Part shown: positions 5,259 to 12,912 of the stretch, one piece after another
Layout of the letters: the number at the start of each line of letters is the position of its first letter
Position numbering within the stretch: the first letter of the stretch is position 1
Assembly: GCF_016756315.1 (NCBI RefSeq)
Contig: NZ_AP024235.1
Location: forward strand, 434,001 to 498,000
Direction of reading: 5' to 3'
Length of the DNA: 64,000 nt
From: Alteromonas sp. KC3
Lineage (GTDB): Bacteria > Pseudomonadota > Gammaproteobacteria > Enterobacterales > Alteromonadaceae
Position numbers and translations under genes: made by a program
The notes under the pieces: generated by a model
Told to the model about the DNA's origin: nothing
The model's input: the letters and a program-made list of their open reading frames with translations, nothing else
The model's database searches: none

Positions 5259-6569
5259 TTACACTGGTAACGTAAACACCTTTGAGTTGCGCTGAAAATT
5301 ATAGAGTTCTTTTTTTACAGCAGGCAGTGCGCTGATATCGGCAGGCTCAAAACCTTGCTCCAAAAACCAGTGTGCAGTCACTGTGGTAAGCACAAAAATA
5401 CGATCAATGCCTGCTTCTTTCGCACGTAGTCTAACTTCATCAAGAATGCGCTCTCCACGATTTTTACCGCGATAATCCTGATGTGTGGCAACACATGCAA
5501 GCTCAGCACAGCCATCTTCAGGGTAGAGATAAAGCGCAGCACAGGCGATGATCATGCCGTCACGTACAATCACAATAAACTGATTAATTTCGTTCTCTAA
5601 ACGCTCGCGAGAGCGTTTCACTAGCACGCCGCTTTCTTCTAAGGGCTTAATCAATTTTAAAATCCCACCCACGTCATCAATAGTGGCAGCACGCAGTTGC
5701 TCGTAATGATGCTCCATTACCAACGAGCCCGTACCGTCGCGAGTGAACAGTTCTTGTAGCAGCGCTCCGTCTTGCTCAAAGCTGATGCAGTGAGCACGAG
5801 GAACGCCGGCTGCGACGCTGGTGGTCAATGCGCTAAGTACAGTGTCCTCTGTGGTGATGTCGCCAGCCATCATAAGCTGCTCTAGCTGTGGGCGCTCGAT
5901 AGTGCGCAGTAGTCTACCTTCACGATTGTAAATACCGTCGAAGTTGGAAAACACAATGAGCTTGTCTGCCTTAAGCGCTATAGCCGCTTGTGTTGCCACA
6001 TCTTCGTGAGACAAATTAAACACTTCACCGGTTGATGAGTAGCCCATAGGAGAGAGCAGAACAATAGAGCCGTCGTTAAGATGGTCATTAATACCAGTGG
6101 TGTCAATGCGGCGTACAAGGCCGGTATTTTCAAAATCAACCCCATTGCGCACGCCCATAGGCTTTGCCACTACTAAGTTGCCTGAGCAAACCCGAATTTG
6201 GGACCCATGCATGGGCGAATTCGGCAACCCCATGGTAAGTAGCGCTTCAACCTGAGAGCGCACAGAGCCTGCGGCATCTTTTACGCACTCAAGGGTTTGC
6301 TTGTCGGTAATACGCACACCACTATCAAAACGGCCCTCAATATTGCGAAGTGCCACACGCTGATCAATTTGAGGGCGAGCACCGTGTACCACCACAACGC
6401 GCACGCCCAAACTATTTAGAAGGGCAATGTCGTGGATAATATTGGGGAAGTTTGGGTGTTCAATGGCTTCGCCACCGAACATTAGCACAAAGGTTTTTCC
6501 CTGATGCGCGTTTATGTAAGGCAGCGAACTGCGAAACAGCTTAATACCATCGTGATGTGCTAATACCAT
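5259..6569 (-). CDS. argA: N-acetylglutamate synthase (ArgA)
   Basis: This enzyme acetylates glutamate with acetyl-CoA, the first step of arginine synthesis. The 436-residue protein has an amino-acid-kinase-like domain (FVLMFGGEAI, VVVHGARPQID, about residues 10-280) and a C-terminal GNAT domain (about 290-430, ELACVATHQDYRGKNRGERIL). The frame is open further upstream inside argH, but the ATG at 6569 has a good AAAGGA site and gives the normal family length. It begins 17 bp after argH ends, so it is the last gene of argCBFGHA. It is not fused to argH as in some marine gammaproteobacteria. Confidence 0.95.
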   Translation of the reverse strand: MVLAHHDGIKLFRSSLPYINAHQGKTFVLMFGGEAIEHPNFPNIIHDIALLNSLGVRVVVVHGARPQIDQRVALRNIEGRFDSGVRITDKQTLECVKDAAGSVRSQVEALLTMGLPNSPMHGSQIRVCSGNLVVAKPMGVRNGVDFENTGLVRRIDTTGINDHLNDGSIVLLSPMGYSSTGEVFNLSHEDVATQAAIALKADKLIVFSNFDGIYNREGRLLRTIERPQLEQLMMAGDITTEDTVLSALTTSVAAGVPRAHCISFEQDGALLQELFTRDGTGSLVMEHHYEQLRAATIDDVGGILKLIKPLEESGVLVKRSRERLENEINQFIVIVRDGMIIACAALYLYPEDGCAELACVATHQDYRGKNRGERILDEVRLRAKEAGIDRIFVLTTVTAHWFLEQGFEPADISALPAVKKELYNFQRNSKVFTLPV

Positions 6570-6586
6570 TTGCGTGTCCTTTGCTA

Positions 6587-7969
6587 CTAGCCTTGTTTGT
6601 CCAAGTTTTCCAGCTCTTGATACAGTGCTTTTGTCACGGTTTCTTTGCTGGTGCCACCTAGAATATTGCGCTGATTTACGCCGTATTCCAGTTGAAGCAC
6701 TGGATAAACATCGTCTTCTATCTTGTCGCAAATAGCTTGCATATCGCTAAGGGGTAAATCTTCAATTGCGCAGCCTTTATCAATGGCTTGAAGCACCACA
6801 CGCCCGGCAATATCGTGACCGGTTCTAAAAGGCACACCTTTACCTACCAGGTAGTCAGCCAGTTCAGTTGCGTTAGAAAAGCCTTGTGTAGCAGCTATAC
6901 GGCAGCGCTCTTCGTTAAGTTGTAGCGAGTCCAGCACTTCACTGGCAATACACAAACAAATATGCCACTGATTCACCGTATCAATTGCGCCCTCTTTGTC
7001 TTCTTGCATATCTTTATTGTAGGCAAGAGGAAGGCCTTTCATAGTAACGAGTAGGGCTTGTAGCGACCCAAATACGCGACCGCATTTACCGCGCATAAGC
7101 TCAAGAGCATCGGGGTTTTTCTTTTGTGGCATTAGCGATGAACCAGATGTCACACTATCGCCTAACTGAAGAAAACCAGCTTCACCCGAGTTATAGAAAA
7201 TCATATCTTCAGCAAGGCGTGATAAGTGCATCATGCTGGTGCTTGCTACAAACAAAAGTTCTAGCACAAAGTCTCTATCAGACACGGCATCTAAGCTGTT
7301 AAGGCAGGGTGAATCGAAACCAAGTTCCTCAGCTATAGCGTGGCGGTCTACGGGGAAGGTAGTGCCTGCCAAGGCGCCAGAGCCAAGAGGACAATGGTTC
7401 ATACGTACTTTTAAGTCATCTAAACGGCTTAAATCACGCTTTAGCATTTCTACGTAAGCTAAGCACCAGTGCGCAAAGTGAATAGGCTGTGCACGCTGTA
7501 GGTGAGTATAACCCGGAATAATCGCTTCTTGATGACGGCTTGCGGCATTAAGCAGAGACTTAATAACACCCAGTACATCATCGCGCAGTGAGGCAATATG
7601 CTCGCGTACCCACAGACGAAAGTCAGTGGCTACTTGGTCGTTACGGCTTCGCCCAGTATGAAGTTTGCGGCCAATGTCACCAAGCTTCTCAATGAGCGCA
7701 GCTTCTACAAAGCTATGAATGTCTTCTTCGCTTGACGCATTGAAATCTAATTCACCCGCTTCGGCCTGTGCTTTTAACTCGCTAAGTGCGCCTTCAAGTT
7801 GTGCTTGCTCATCAGCCGTCAGTACACCTGCTTTTTGCAAAGCGCGCGACCAGCTTATAGAGCCTTGAATATCTTGGCTTGCCATAACCTGGTCAAACGG
7901 CAGCGAGTCGTTAACCTGTTTAAACATACTACTTGCACCGGATTCAAACCGGCCACCCCACAACGCCAT
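6587..7969 (-). CDS. argH: argininosuccinate lyase
   Basis: ArgH splits argininosuccinate into arginine and fumarate, the last step of the pathway. The 460-residue protein starts MALWGGRF and carries the fumarase/aspartase signature GSSLMPQKKNP and the TGRSRNDQVATD segment. Its length is normal for the unfused enzyme. The start has an AAGGAG site. It is 35 bp from argG and 17 bp before argA in the arginine operon. Confidence 0.97.
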   Translation of the reverse strand: MALWGGRFESGASSMFKQVNDSLPFDQVMASQDIQGSISWSRALQKAGVLTADEQAQLEGALSELKAQAEAGELDFNASSEEDIHSFVEAALIEKLGDIGRKLHTGRSRNDQVATDFRLWVREHIASLRDDVLGVIKSLLNAASRHQEAIIPGYTHLQRAQPIHFAHWCLAYVEMLKRDLSRLDDLKVRMNHCPLGSGALAGTTFPVDRHAIAEELGFDSPCLNSLDAVSDRDFVLELLFVASTSMMHLSRLAEDMIFYNSGEAGFLQLGDSVTSGSSLMPQKKNPDALELMRGKCGRVFGSLQALLVTMKGLPLAYNKDMQEDKEGAIDTVNQWHICLCIASEVLDSLQLNEERCRIAATQGFSNATELADYLVGKGVPFRTGHDIAGRVVLQAIDKGCAIEDLPLSDMQAICDKIEDDVYPVLQLEYGVNQRNILGGTSKETVTKALYQELENLDKQG

Positions 7970-10159: not shown

Positions 10160-10965
10160 TATACGTCTCCAGCTTGCTGCGCTTTCGTATTTGCAGCATT
10201 TGTAGGTCTTATTTGTGTACCTGTGTTTTGGTTAAGAATGTCGGCAATGTCAGCTATCCAGCTGGCAATAAATACGGGGCGTTGAAGGGTGTCTGCAGAA
10301 GCAAGAGCCGCATCGACTTTCACTTTCATACCGTCAGTGATGACGCCCTCACTGGCATAATGGGCAATACTTTGTGCGTCGAGTTCGCGTATCAGCATTT
10401 TATCCGCGTCTAACACGCCATCTACGTTAGAGAGCAGCAGCAATTCAGCATCTAGAAGCTCAGCGATTACCGTTGCAGCTTGGTCGGCATTAACGTTAAG
10501 CAATCTGCCTTGGGGGCTTGAACCGATTGAGCTAATTATAGGTAAGGTATGCTGCGCGAGTACGTTCTTTAGAAACGCTGCATCTGCAGTTGACGGCACA
10601 CCTACCGCACCGTATTGATCGGCAAGTGGCTCGCAGACCACCATATTGCCATCCAGCAGCGACAGACCCACTGGCGTTAAACCACTGGCGATGGCAGCGG
10701 CGCACAATTGCTTATTAGCCGAGCCCGCTAATGCGCCACAGATATATGGCATATGTTCATCAGGAGTAACGCGTAGGCCATCAATTTTAGTACTTTGTAG
10801 CCCAAGACTTGCCATAAGCGTTTCAACCAATGGGCCACCACCGTGTACTACAACAACAGGGCGTGCAGTTTGCACTTCTTTAACACTTAAAAATAAGCGG
10901 GCCATAGCAGGTGCATCATCAAGTAATGCACCGCCAACTTTAATAACTATTGGTGAACGGCTCAT
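10159..10965 (-). CDS. argB: acetylglutamate kinase
   Basis: ArgB phosphorylates N-acetylglutamate. The 268-residue protein begins [17 protein letters not shown] and has VVVHGGGP and the nucleotide-binding [11 protein letters not shown] of amino-acid kinases. The frame is open 16 codons upstream, but the ATG at 10965 overlaps the argC stop as ATGA and gives the family N-terminus, so I take it as the start. The terminal 15 or so residues are low-similarity tail. Confidence 0.95.
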
Positions 10966-11975
10966 AGTACTAACCCTGTTTCTACTGGCTGTGCTGTCAT
11001 GATATTTAGGCATTGAATAGCTTGCGAAGCTGCGCCTTTCATGACGTTGTCTATTGCTGCGGTAACCACGGCATATCCCGATGTTTCATCTAACTTCCAA
11101 TGCAAATCAACAAACGGGGTGTGCGCAACATCATCAATTTTAGGGAAGCTGTCGCGCAAACGCACAATAGGTTTATCAGCATAGGCTTCACAGTACGCTT
11201 GTTCAAGTTGAGCACTGGTTACACCTGCTTTTACTTTTACGGTAACAGTGGCCAAAATACCGCGTTTGAAATTACCTAAATGTGGGGTAAATATGACTGG
11301 CGAACCAAGGTAGGCTTCTATCTCTGGTGTGTGACGGTGTCCTAATACGCCATAGGCTTGCAGGCTTACTTCATAAAAACTGGTAGTAAGGCTGGCCTTT
11401 CTACCGGCACCGGATACACCCGAAACGGCATTGATAACGGGCCTTACGCTATCATCAAGTAGATGCTTGTTTGCTAATGGTTTAAGCGCACTTAAACTGG
11501 CAGTAGGGTAACAGCCAGGTACGGCTATTATATTCGCGCTGGCAATATCACTGGCATACCATTCGGCAAGGCCATAAACCGCTTTATTTAGGCTTTCTTC
11601 TTGAGTGTGGGCGAAACCATAAAACTGCGCAAACACGTCAGTATCTTTTAACCTAAACGCACCTGATAAATCGAGTACCTTTGCACGTCCTGACGACAAA
11701 ATTGGCATCCAGTCATGGCTAGCCTCGTGAGGTGTGGCTAAAAAGACAAAATCCACACTTTGTGAGAGTTCCAAGAGCGCTTCATCTGAAATAGGTGTAA
11801 GTACCGCATTTACATGGGCAAGATTGCCATGCAGTTGGGCAATGGACTTACCTGCATCGGCACTATTTTCAGATACATAAGTACCTTTAAGTGCGAGTGC
11901 AGGATGCTGCATCACCAACTGGACAAGTTGTGCTCCTGTGTAACCACTGGCACCAATAATTGCAACGTTATACAT
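10962..11975 (-). CDS. argC: N-acetyl-gamma-glutamyl-phosphate reductase
   Basis: ArgC reduces acetylglutamyl phosphate with NADPH. The 337-residue protein has the [10 protein letters not shown] nucleotide-binding motif at its N-terminus and the active-site segment VPGCYPTA (catalytic Cys near residue 154). It is the first structural gene of the operon. The ATG at 11975 is certain from homology, but the 30 nt before it are T-rich and show no Shine-Dalgarno sequence. Upstream lies the leader-peptide/stem structure described separately. Confidence 0.96.
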
Positions 11976-11998
11976 AACTAAAAATTCAATAAAGGAAG

Positions 11999-12080
11999 AA
12001 AAAAATCACTTTTTACCTTTGTAAACTGATTGGGCTTATTCCTTTGCCTAACCGCTACCACATTACAAAGGTAAAAAGTG
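11999..12080 (-). terminator. terminator-like stem-loop in the argC leader
   Basis: On the minus strand, CACTTTTTACCTTTGTAA (12080-12063) is followed after 38 nt by its exact complement TTACAAAGGTAAAAAGTG (12024-12007), then A and seven T. A perfect 18-bp stem with a U-tract downstream in the arg direction only looks like an intrinsic terminator. It sits between a small Arg-containing ORF and argC. A second CAAAGG in the loop could pair with CCTTTG of the left arm, giving an alternative fold. The stem is A/T-rich, which weakens the terminator reading. Confidence 0.6.
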
Positions 12081-12082
12081 TG

Positions 12083-12208
12083 CTAACGCAAAAGCATAGA
12101 CGAATATGCGCGTCGTCGCGCGCTATGCAGCACGTAGCCAGCCAGGGGAGAGGTTAACTCTTTGTCGTTGTAAGCTATAAAACCAACAACAGGAGTTGGT
12201 TGTGTCAT
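12083..12208 (-). CDS. putative arginine leader peptide
   Basis: A 41-codon ORF starts with ATG at 12208 after a good site (TAGGAAAGCGTG before ATG, AGGA spaced about 7 nt). It begins MTQPTPVVGFIAYND and ends SARRRAYSSMLLR. Residues 31-33 are encoded CGA CGA CGC and the last codon before TAG is CGT. The stop lies 2 nt before the 18-bp stem of the argC leader. Position, ribosome site, clustered Arg codons and the adjacent terminator-like stem fit a leader peptide sensing charged tRNA-Arg. It is too short for routine gene callers. That it acts in attenuation is inference. Confidence 0.55.
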   Translation of the reverse strand: MTQPTPVVGFIAYNDKELTSPLAGYVLHSARRRAYSSMLLR

Positions 12209-12264
12209 CACGCTTTCCTATATCGATTAACCCATGTAAGGGTTAGATGCTTAAACCGTGTACT

Positions 12265-12292
12265 AGTTTATCTATTTTGAATGTTTATGCAA
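12265..12292 (-). promoter_or_regulatory. candidate arg operon promoter
   Basis: On the minus strand TTGCAT (12292-12287) and TAAACT (12270-12265) are separated by 16 bp. Transcription would start near 12258, giving a leader of about 280 nt before argC that includes the leader-peptide ORF. The -35 hexamer lies inside the first ArgR-like box. Confidence 0.4.
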
Positions 12293-12312
12293 TATAAATG
12301 TATAAATATTTT
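12278..12312. promoter_or_regulatory. tandem ArgR (ARG box)-like sites
   Basis: TGAATGTTTATGCA (12278-12291) matches 12 of 14 positions of the remembered ARG-box core TGAATwwwwATTCA. TGTATAAATATTTT (12299-12312) matches 11 of 14. The two cores are exactly 21 bp apart, the spacing expected for a tandem ArgR operator, and they cover the candidate arg promoter. The nearest divergent gene is mgsA, so the arg operon is the likely target. Confidence 0.6.
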
Positions 12313-12386
12313 GCATGCTGTGGGCGAGGGTGACCAATAAGAGTAATAAACATAATACAATTAAAGTTATTACAAGAAGTTGACAG

Positions 12387-12415
12387 TTGAAGTTATTAAA
12401 CTGAATATTTATATT
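12387..12415 (+). promoter_or_regulatory. candidate mgsA promoter
   Basis: TTGAAG (12387-12392) and TATATT (12410-12415) are spaced 17 bp apart and lie about 87 bp before the mgsA ATG. An overlapping TTGACA at 12380 has no -10 at a suitable distance. Confidence 0.35.
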
Positions 12416-12501
12416 AAAAGCGCTACATGTAGGTGTGCCGCTTGTATACACAAAGAAAAGACGAAGAAAAGACAAAGAACGAACAGTAGGGCTCGACTAA
12501 A

Positions 12502-12912
12502 ATGAGTAAATTAACGCTAGCGCTTGTCGCTCATGATCATAAAAAGCCTGAGCTACTTGCATGGGTAAAGACACATATAGACGTGCTTAAACAATGCAAT
12601 TTGGTGGCTACCGGCACAACGGGAGGGCTTATTGCAAGTGAAACTGGGCTTGATGTGACGCGTTATAAGAGCGGGCCGCTTGGTGGTGATCAACAGATTG
12701 GGGCGCTTATTGCTGAAAATAAGCTTGATGCGTTATTTTTTTTCTGGGACCCGCTTAATGCCGCACCGCACGATCCTGATGTAAAAGCATTACTTCGTTT
12801 GTGCTCTGTGTGGAATGTACCTGTGGCGTGTACACCAGCAACTGCAGACCTCGTGGTAACATCACCTTTGTTTTTATCACCGGATTACAAACCAGTAAAA
12901 CCTAATTTTTAA
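12502..12912 (+). CDS. mgsA: methylglyoxal synthase
   Basis: MgsA converts dihydroxyacetone phosphate into methylglyoxal and phosphate, a bypass of glycolysis under phosphate limitation. The 136-residue protein keeps the family blocks [34 protein letters not shown] (catalytic Asp63), [22 protein letters not shown] (His90) and the [14 protein letters not shown] end. It is somewhat shorter than the roughly 150-residue E. coli enzyme, lacking residues at both ends. It stands alone, divergent from the arg operon. Confidence 0.95.

Follow-up and report, generated by a model that had tools for sequence, protein, structure and literature searches.

The window (the whole 64,000-nucleotide stretch of DNA that was analysed) carries an arg gene cluster on the minus strand. 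Its first gene, which we take to be argC from its sequence and its relatives, is preceded by a short leader open reading frame (ORF) in the same direction and by two hairpins. The features of this region are as follows.

10962..11975, minus strand: argC, first gene of the arg gene cluster (from the ORF list and the ArgC of relatives)
11999..12005, minus strand: T7 run after the stem; the T run is invariant in the alignment
12007..12080, minus strand: hairpin B, terminator-like, with an 18-bp stem (12080-12063 with 12024-12007)
12082..12138, minus strand: hairpin A, with the base GCTAC (12138-12134) opposite TTAGC (12086-12082) and the Arg codons inside
12083..12208, minus strand: leader ORF of 41 codons (ATG at 12208, TAG at 12085-12083), peptide MTQPTPVVGFIAYNDKELTSPLAGYVLHSARRRAYSSMLLR
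12110..12118, minus strand: putative control codons CGA CGA CGC (Arg-Arg-Arg), of which CGA-CGA is the conserved part
12134..12152, minus strand: conserved core CTCTCCCCTGGCTGGCTAC, from the alignment
12291-12278, minus strand: ARG-box-like sequence TGCATAAACATTCA, an exact match to the box pattern that overlaps the putative promoter
12265..12310, minus strand: putative promoter within this stretch, TTGCAT (12292-12287) and TAAACT (12270-12265), by eye

An AGGA-type ribosome site precedes the leader ATG (by eye), and the last codon of the ORF is CGT (Arg). A gap of 2 nt separates the leader stop from the perfect 18-bp stem, which is followed by one A and then T7. The first-pass annotation had described the ORF with its Arg-Arg-Arg and final Arg, the 18-bp stem and T7, and all of these lie where it had placed them. 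The complementarities that it pointed out, CCTTTG with CAAAGG and CTTTTGC with GCAAAGG, are likewise present in the window sequence. Hairpin A, which surrounds the Arg codons, was absent from that annotation.

Beyond the leader, the neighbouring long ORF (12502-12912, plus strand), presumably methylglyoxal synthase-like, points away from the arg genes, and the orientation of the T run fits the arg direction. A promoter-like match starts at 12380, near this divergent ORF, and such matches were no commoner than in shuffles. The arg cluster ends with two long ORFs, 5259-6731 and 6587-7969 (minus strand), which we take to be argH-like and argA-like; with the longest possible start, they share as much as 145 nt. 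An argR gene is present. The promoter scan missed the putative promoter at 12265..12310, and a pattern search of the window gave no excess of looser ARG-box matches. A sequence like the ARG box was found in many aligned relatives.

The 157-nt segment folds at -51.6 kcal/mol compared with a shuffled mean of -39.25 (z -3.13; 1/200 shuffles as good or better). In the folded leader, the base of hairpin A pairs GCUAC with GUAGC and brings the SPLAGY codons together with the bases that immediately precede the terminator, ending one base short of the hairpin B stem. In the window, hairpin A lacks its outermost base pair (C opposite T).

ArgC was found in 56 of 60 genomes, including all 36 of the same genus (own genome counted), and the leaders of 30 of these 36 loci, own included, were aligned (alignment A1). 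All 30 carry the leader, with an ORF in frame with CGA-CGA, the hairpin and the terminator; the alignment of relatives that the first-pass annotation had proposed as a check comes out in its favour, with the ORF frame, the CGA-CGA and the stem kept in 30/30 with compensating changes. On this alignment, the two-hairpin structure had 95.4% of cells paired versus 90.3% in shuffles, and 11 pairs were changed on both sides versus 4.7 in shuffles. On each of the five pairing measures, the real alignment exceeded all 500 shuffles; relatedness by itself can lift sequences above shuffles where there is no structure, but pairing was also far lower in the slid controls (37-46%). RNAalifold recovered hairpin B and the base of hairpin A, and its covariation term was small (-1.17); 8/18 of the lower terminator pairs and 3/5 of the hairpin A base pairs are invariant and hence uninformative. 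In other genera, the base of hairpin A has changed on both sides (GCTATGC/GCATAGC, GCTACG/CGTAGC and GCTATA/TATAGC, by eye). The hairpin interior was not conserved in the same-genus alignment. The sequence form of a terminator is present in the window and in the same-genus leaders. An ops-like GGTAGC string stands before the stem in some leaders and is presumably due to chance. The C-rich string CTCTCCC before hairpin A (12134-12152, minus strand) is kept even without the Arg pair in four loci (L070, L072, L074 and L076).

The distribution of the codon pair was determined by a search for CGA-CGA inside a short ATG ORF in the 330 nt upstream of argC. The pair was detected in 33/33 same-genus loci (50 shuffles: mean 0.1, largest 1), in 30/61 loci of other genera of the family (50 shuffles: mean 0.28, largest 2) and in 5/19 loci of other families (50 shuffles: mean 0.08, largest 2), with 0 on the reverse strand in each case. 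The 61 loci comprise 16 that were chosen as matches of the model R1, 10 of them with the pair, and 45 others with one locus per genus, 20 of them with the pair; these 45 are from the 46 genera-sampled loci with ArgC. The positive loci of other families fell one each in f6, f10, f12, f15 and f16 (the f-numbers are arbitrary family labels), and the f2 locus L111 and the f25 locus L127 of this first set had no CGA-CGA leader. A second, order-wide set of 74 loci, taken from 178 genomes with ArgC, gave 24 positives; the reverse strand gave 1, and the 30 shuffles gave 0-2 each. By family, the positives were 4/4 in f2, 9/10 in f6, 3/3 in f12, 5/5 in f16 and 3/5 in f25, and no CGA-CGA leader was found in the 47 loci of the ten other families of this set.

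Among 69 named loci, which partly overlap the other sets and of which two Clostridium loci were left out, 56/63 of the window's family carried the CGA-CGA leader. The positive genera include Alteromonas, Aestuariibacter, Marisediminitalea, Salinimonas, Aliiglaciecola, Paraglaciecola, Bowmanella and others; the 7/63 without the pair are five Glaciecola, one Paraglaciecola genome bin and Opacimonas. The CGA-CGA leader was absent from the four unrelated bacterial or archaeal loci. In locus L081, the core is kept and the Arg pair has been lost to a stop codon before its place (by eye), a natural loss.

The doubling is nearly confined to one codon. Other doubled Arg codons were rare in such ORFs of 187 argC upstream regions (CGT 2, CGG 1, and CGC, AGA and AGG 0 each; identical Arg codon pairs only). 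In 37 long reading frames of the window, CGA made up 13.9% of Arg codons, and CGA-CGA occurred in 0/16003 codon pairs. Start codons, and hence N-termini, of the relatives' leader peptides were picked by crude rules and are uncertain. The peptides are unrelated between families except for Arg-Arg, as expected if the codons, not the peptide, are read. As far as the sequences tell, the codon pair is the constant element of these leaders, and the peptide, the stop and the hairpins differ between lineages.

The model R1 matched 49 of 395 genomes of the family, 32 of the same genus (which need not be every same-genus genome drawn) and 17 of other genera. Of the 20 matches inspected, the 17 from other genera and 3 from the same genus, 19 were directly upstream of argC; the match in G111 (L064) was not and was counted as false. 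Within the own genome, R1 matched nothing beyond the argC site and, on the opposite strand, the hairpin of that site. The region before carA of the own genome (L146) contains a hairpin, AAACGGGA...TCCCGTTTTTT, at about 1370-1430 that resembles a premature terminator; inspection by eye revealed no Arg-rich leader there.

The same codon pair is found with other hairpin designs. In 5/6 loci of family f16 (L121, L218, L223, L233 and L237), the Arg codons form the left arm of a hairpin before a T-rich tail. These hairpins fold at -16.2 to -20.7 kcal/mol compared with downstream-shuffled means of -2.4 to -3.8, although for L237 the best shuffle (-17.2) beats the real fold; the sixth f16 locus, L276, showed no such one-hairpin form by the same test. 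One locus of the window's own family, L085, has the same one-hairpin form with T8 (-12.9 kcal/mol; shuffled mean -4.7, best -12.6), and L087 has a GC-rich hairpin whose sequence is unrelated to that of the window. A hairpin of -9 kcal/mol or lower plus a T-rich stretch was detected between the Arg codons and argC in 33 of 49 loci chosen by hand, versus 72/294 shuffles; a few of the 33 are long weak-looking structures, not neat terminators. In L102 (MLLFRRR), L106, L108 and L109, the Arg codons are present without a clear terminator, so that another mode (Rho, translation) must be considered there.

Taken together, the leader is best read as an arginine-specific leader-peptide attenuator of the argC gene cluster that acts below ArgR control, with a probability of roughly 75%. 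Comparison of the sequences establishes the ORF, the CGA-CGA pair, the covarying hairpin A and the terminator form; from these we infer stalling, the direction of the response and read-through. The recurrence of the codon pair before argC in many relatives suggests that expression of the arginine genes probably hinges on translation of the CGA codons. If charged tRNA-Arg is sufficient, the ribosome would clear the CGA codons and leave, and hairpin A would close. Once hairpin A is closed, hairpin B would form and transcription would end at U7. When Arg-tRNA is short, the ribosome would stall on CGA-CGA, holding the 5' arm of hairpin A; the freed 3' strand of hairpin A, or the trapped ribosome, would then hinder hairpin B, and RNA polymerase would read into argC. 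In the one-hairpin form, the CGA codons are the left arm, so that a stalled ribosome would block the hairpin directly, and in other lineages the same codon pair is coupled to other hairpins. That this holds widely is a matter of about even odds: many lineages of the order (the window's family and at least seven others) would read Arg-tRNA through a leader demanding CGA-CGA, and in its simplest form, seen in a single further family and in one genome from the family of the window, the sensing codons would themselves be the left arm of the terminator, a one-hairpin attenuator needing no antiterminator.

The antiterminator is the weakest point of this reading. Folding with a simulated ribosome on the second CGA, at a point where the right arm is not yet made, gave a mean unpaired value of 0.58 for the left arm, only slightly below the 0.65 without the ribosome, and the value was lower in 22/30 leaders. 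The left arm was not blocked more often with the simulated ribosome (0.92 versus 0.94 without; more in 5/30), a measure that is saturated near 1 and says little. With segment 2 shuffled, the freed segment folded just as well (mean z -0.36), and only L009 stood out (-3.59). Pairing of the loop with the left arm or with segment 2 was considered as a general antiterminator and rejected: it appeared in single folds, was not conserved outside close relatives and was unsupported by the folding tests. The loop complementarities of the first-pass annotation, taken as functional pairing, are not supported, being lost in more distant leaders. An alternative fold may exist only in particular clades, hairpin A may favour hairpin B by some other route, or kinetics may account for the effect.

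Another explanation is that the structured RNA, consisting of the core and hairpins A and B, is the real switch for a protein, a small RNA or a metabolite, with the leader ORF as a second layer or secondary. Across 30 leaders, the six core codons showed 1 synonymous and 20 non-synonymous departures from the majority, unlike argC in the same loci, whose codons showed 3489 synonymous departures against 1687 non-synonymous ones (1/335 columns invariant, with Met and Trp columns set aside). This indicates that the core CTCTCCCCTGGCTGGCTAC, judged from the aligned sequences, is constrained as RNA and not as peptide. Furthermore, CGA-CGA is missing from four Glaciecola-type loci (L070, L072, L074 and L076) that retain the core, the hairpin and the terminator, and no leader ORF is visible there by eye; a model built on the leader peptide alone does not predict such loci. 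However, lineages whose hairpins are entirely different retain CGA-CGA, the hairpin interior lacks the conservation expected of a binding pocket, and no Rfam family was matched (only chance-level matches up to E 5 in window positions 11900-12600; no gathering match in 20 loci). An RNA switch of this kind is considered unlikely.

The core also bears on the possibility that the nascent leader is an arrest peptide that binds free arginine in the ribosome tunnel and stalls. SPLAGY sits 5-6 residues ahead of Arg-Arg in the same-genus leaders, which would suit such a peptide. A conserved peptide sequence was not found, though, since the leader peptides differ between families except for Arg-Arg and 20/21 of the core-codon changes are non-synonymous. 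Arrest peptides also stall when their ligand is plentiful, and this explanation is quite improbable. Slightly less probable still is control by ArgR only, with the stem as an ordinary constitutive terminator-like structure and the ORF as a by-product. The argR gene and the ARG-box-like sequence at the putative promoter agree with ArgR control, but the in-frame CGA-CGA in short ORFs of otherwise unrelated leaders would be left unexplained. The reversed logic of the first-pass annotation, in which a ribosome at the leader stop codon masks the left arm, is hardly credible: the stop is a TAG beside the stem (2 nt before it) in 23/30 leaders, the window among them, but in the other 7/30 same-genus leaders (L014, L018, L025 and L027-L030) the ORF ends 17-34 nt before the stem with TAGC still kept, many other-genus leaders stop right after Arg-Arg, and the GTAGC that holds the TAG persists even where this is not the stop, fitting pairing in hairpin A.

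The last codon is not regularly Arg in the same-genus leaders, so that a role for the final Arg codon as a sensor is not supported. Because the last codon varies and 7/30 ORFs end earlier, the final Arg and the stop at the stem are not what is conserved. Thus, the arginine attenuator proposed before argC stands in its Arg-codon leader peptide and terminator, with the codon pair extending well beyond the genus, and not in its final Arg, stop masking or loop pairings.

No paper on an arginine leader-peptide attenuator in bacteria was found, by title and abstract start, among the matches listed; an older comparative study may list one. Lopatovskaya et al. (2010) reportedly treated the attenuation of operons for amino acids, and an arginine case may be among those covered there. 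Unless such a study lists it, we rate the proposed arginine attenuator as a new form of leader-peptide attenuation. If widespread, it would add a sensor of tRNA charging to a pathway described as ArgR-repressed.

Several known systems resemble the argC leader in part. SpeFL (ornithine) and the fungal arginine attenuator peptide are leader-type arrest peptides. They likewise tie a leader peptide to arginine or a neighbouring metabolite, but they act via a conserved peptide sequence, whereas the argC leader peptide is not conserved beyond Arg-Arg. T-box leaders are named for RNA-level control of arginine in PMC1262725. The likeness lies in RNA-level control of arginine genes by tRNA charging; however, a T-box itself binds the uncharged tRNA, with no leader peptide required, and the T-box covariance model gave no match to the argC leader (window positions 11900-12600, up to E 5) and no gathering match in 20 loci. 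ArgR is given as the arginine regulator (repression) of gammaproteobacteria in PMC5343134. It also controls arginine biosynthesis genes in gammaproteobacteria, but as a DNA-binding repressor at the promoter without a leader peptide, and the argC leader and ArgR appear to coexist here.

The closest resemblance is to the classical leader-peptide transcription attenuators, which are known for the his, thr, leu, ilv, trp and pheA operons. PMC1262725 and PMC5343134 name the his, thr and phe attenuators and the trp and pheA attenuators, respectively. Like these, the argC leader has a short ORF with codons of the pathway's product, a hairpin around the putative control codons and an intrinsic-type terminator form before the first gene. 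Unlike these, it would sense arginine, and it has only two or three control codons, which are nearly always CGA; this near-exclusive use makes the idea of slowly decoded codons as starvation sensors directly testable. The argC leaders also differ in having no supported antiterminator, and some lineages have one hairpin or no clear terminator. The one-hairpin form would offer a very simple setting in which to study the control of termination by a stalled ribosome.
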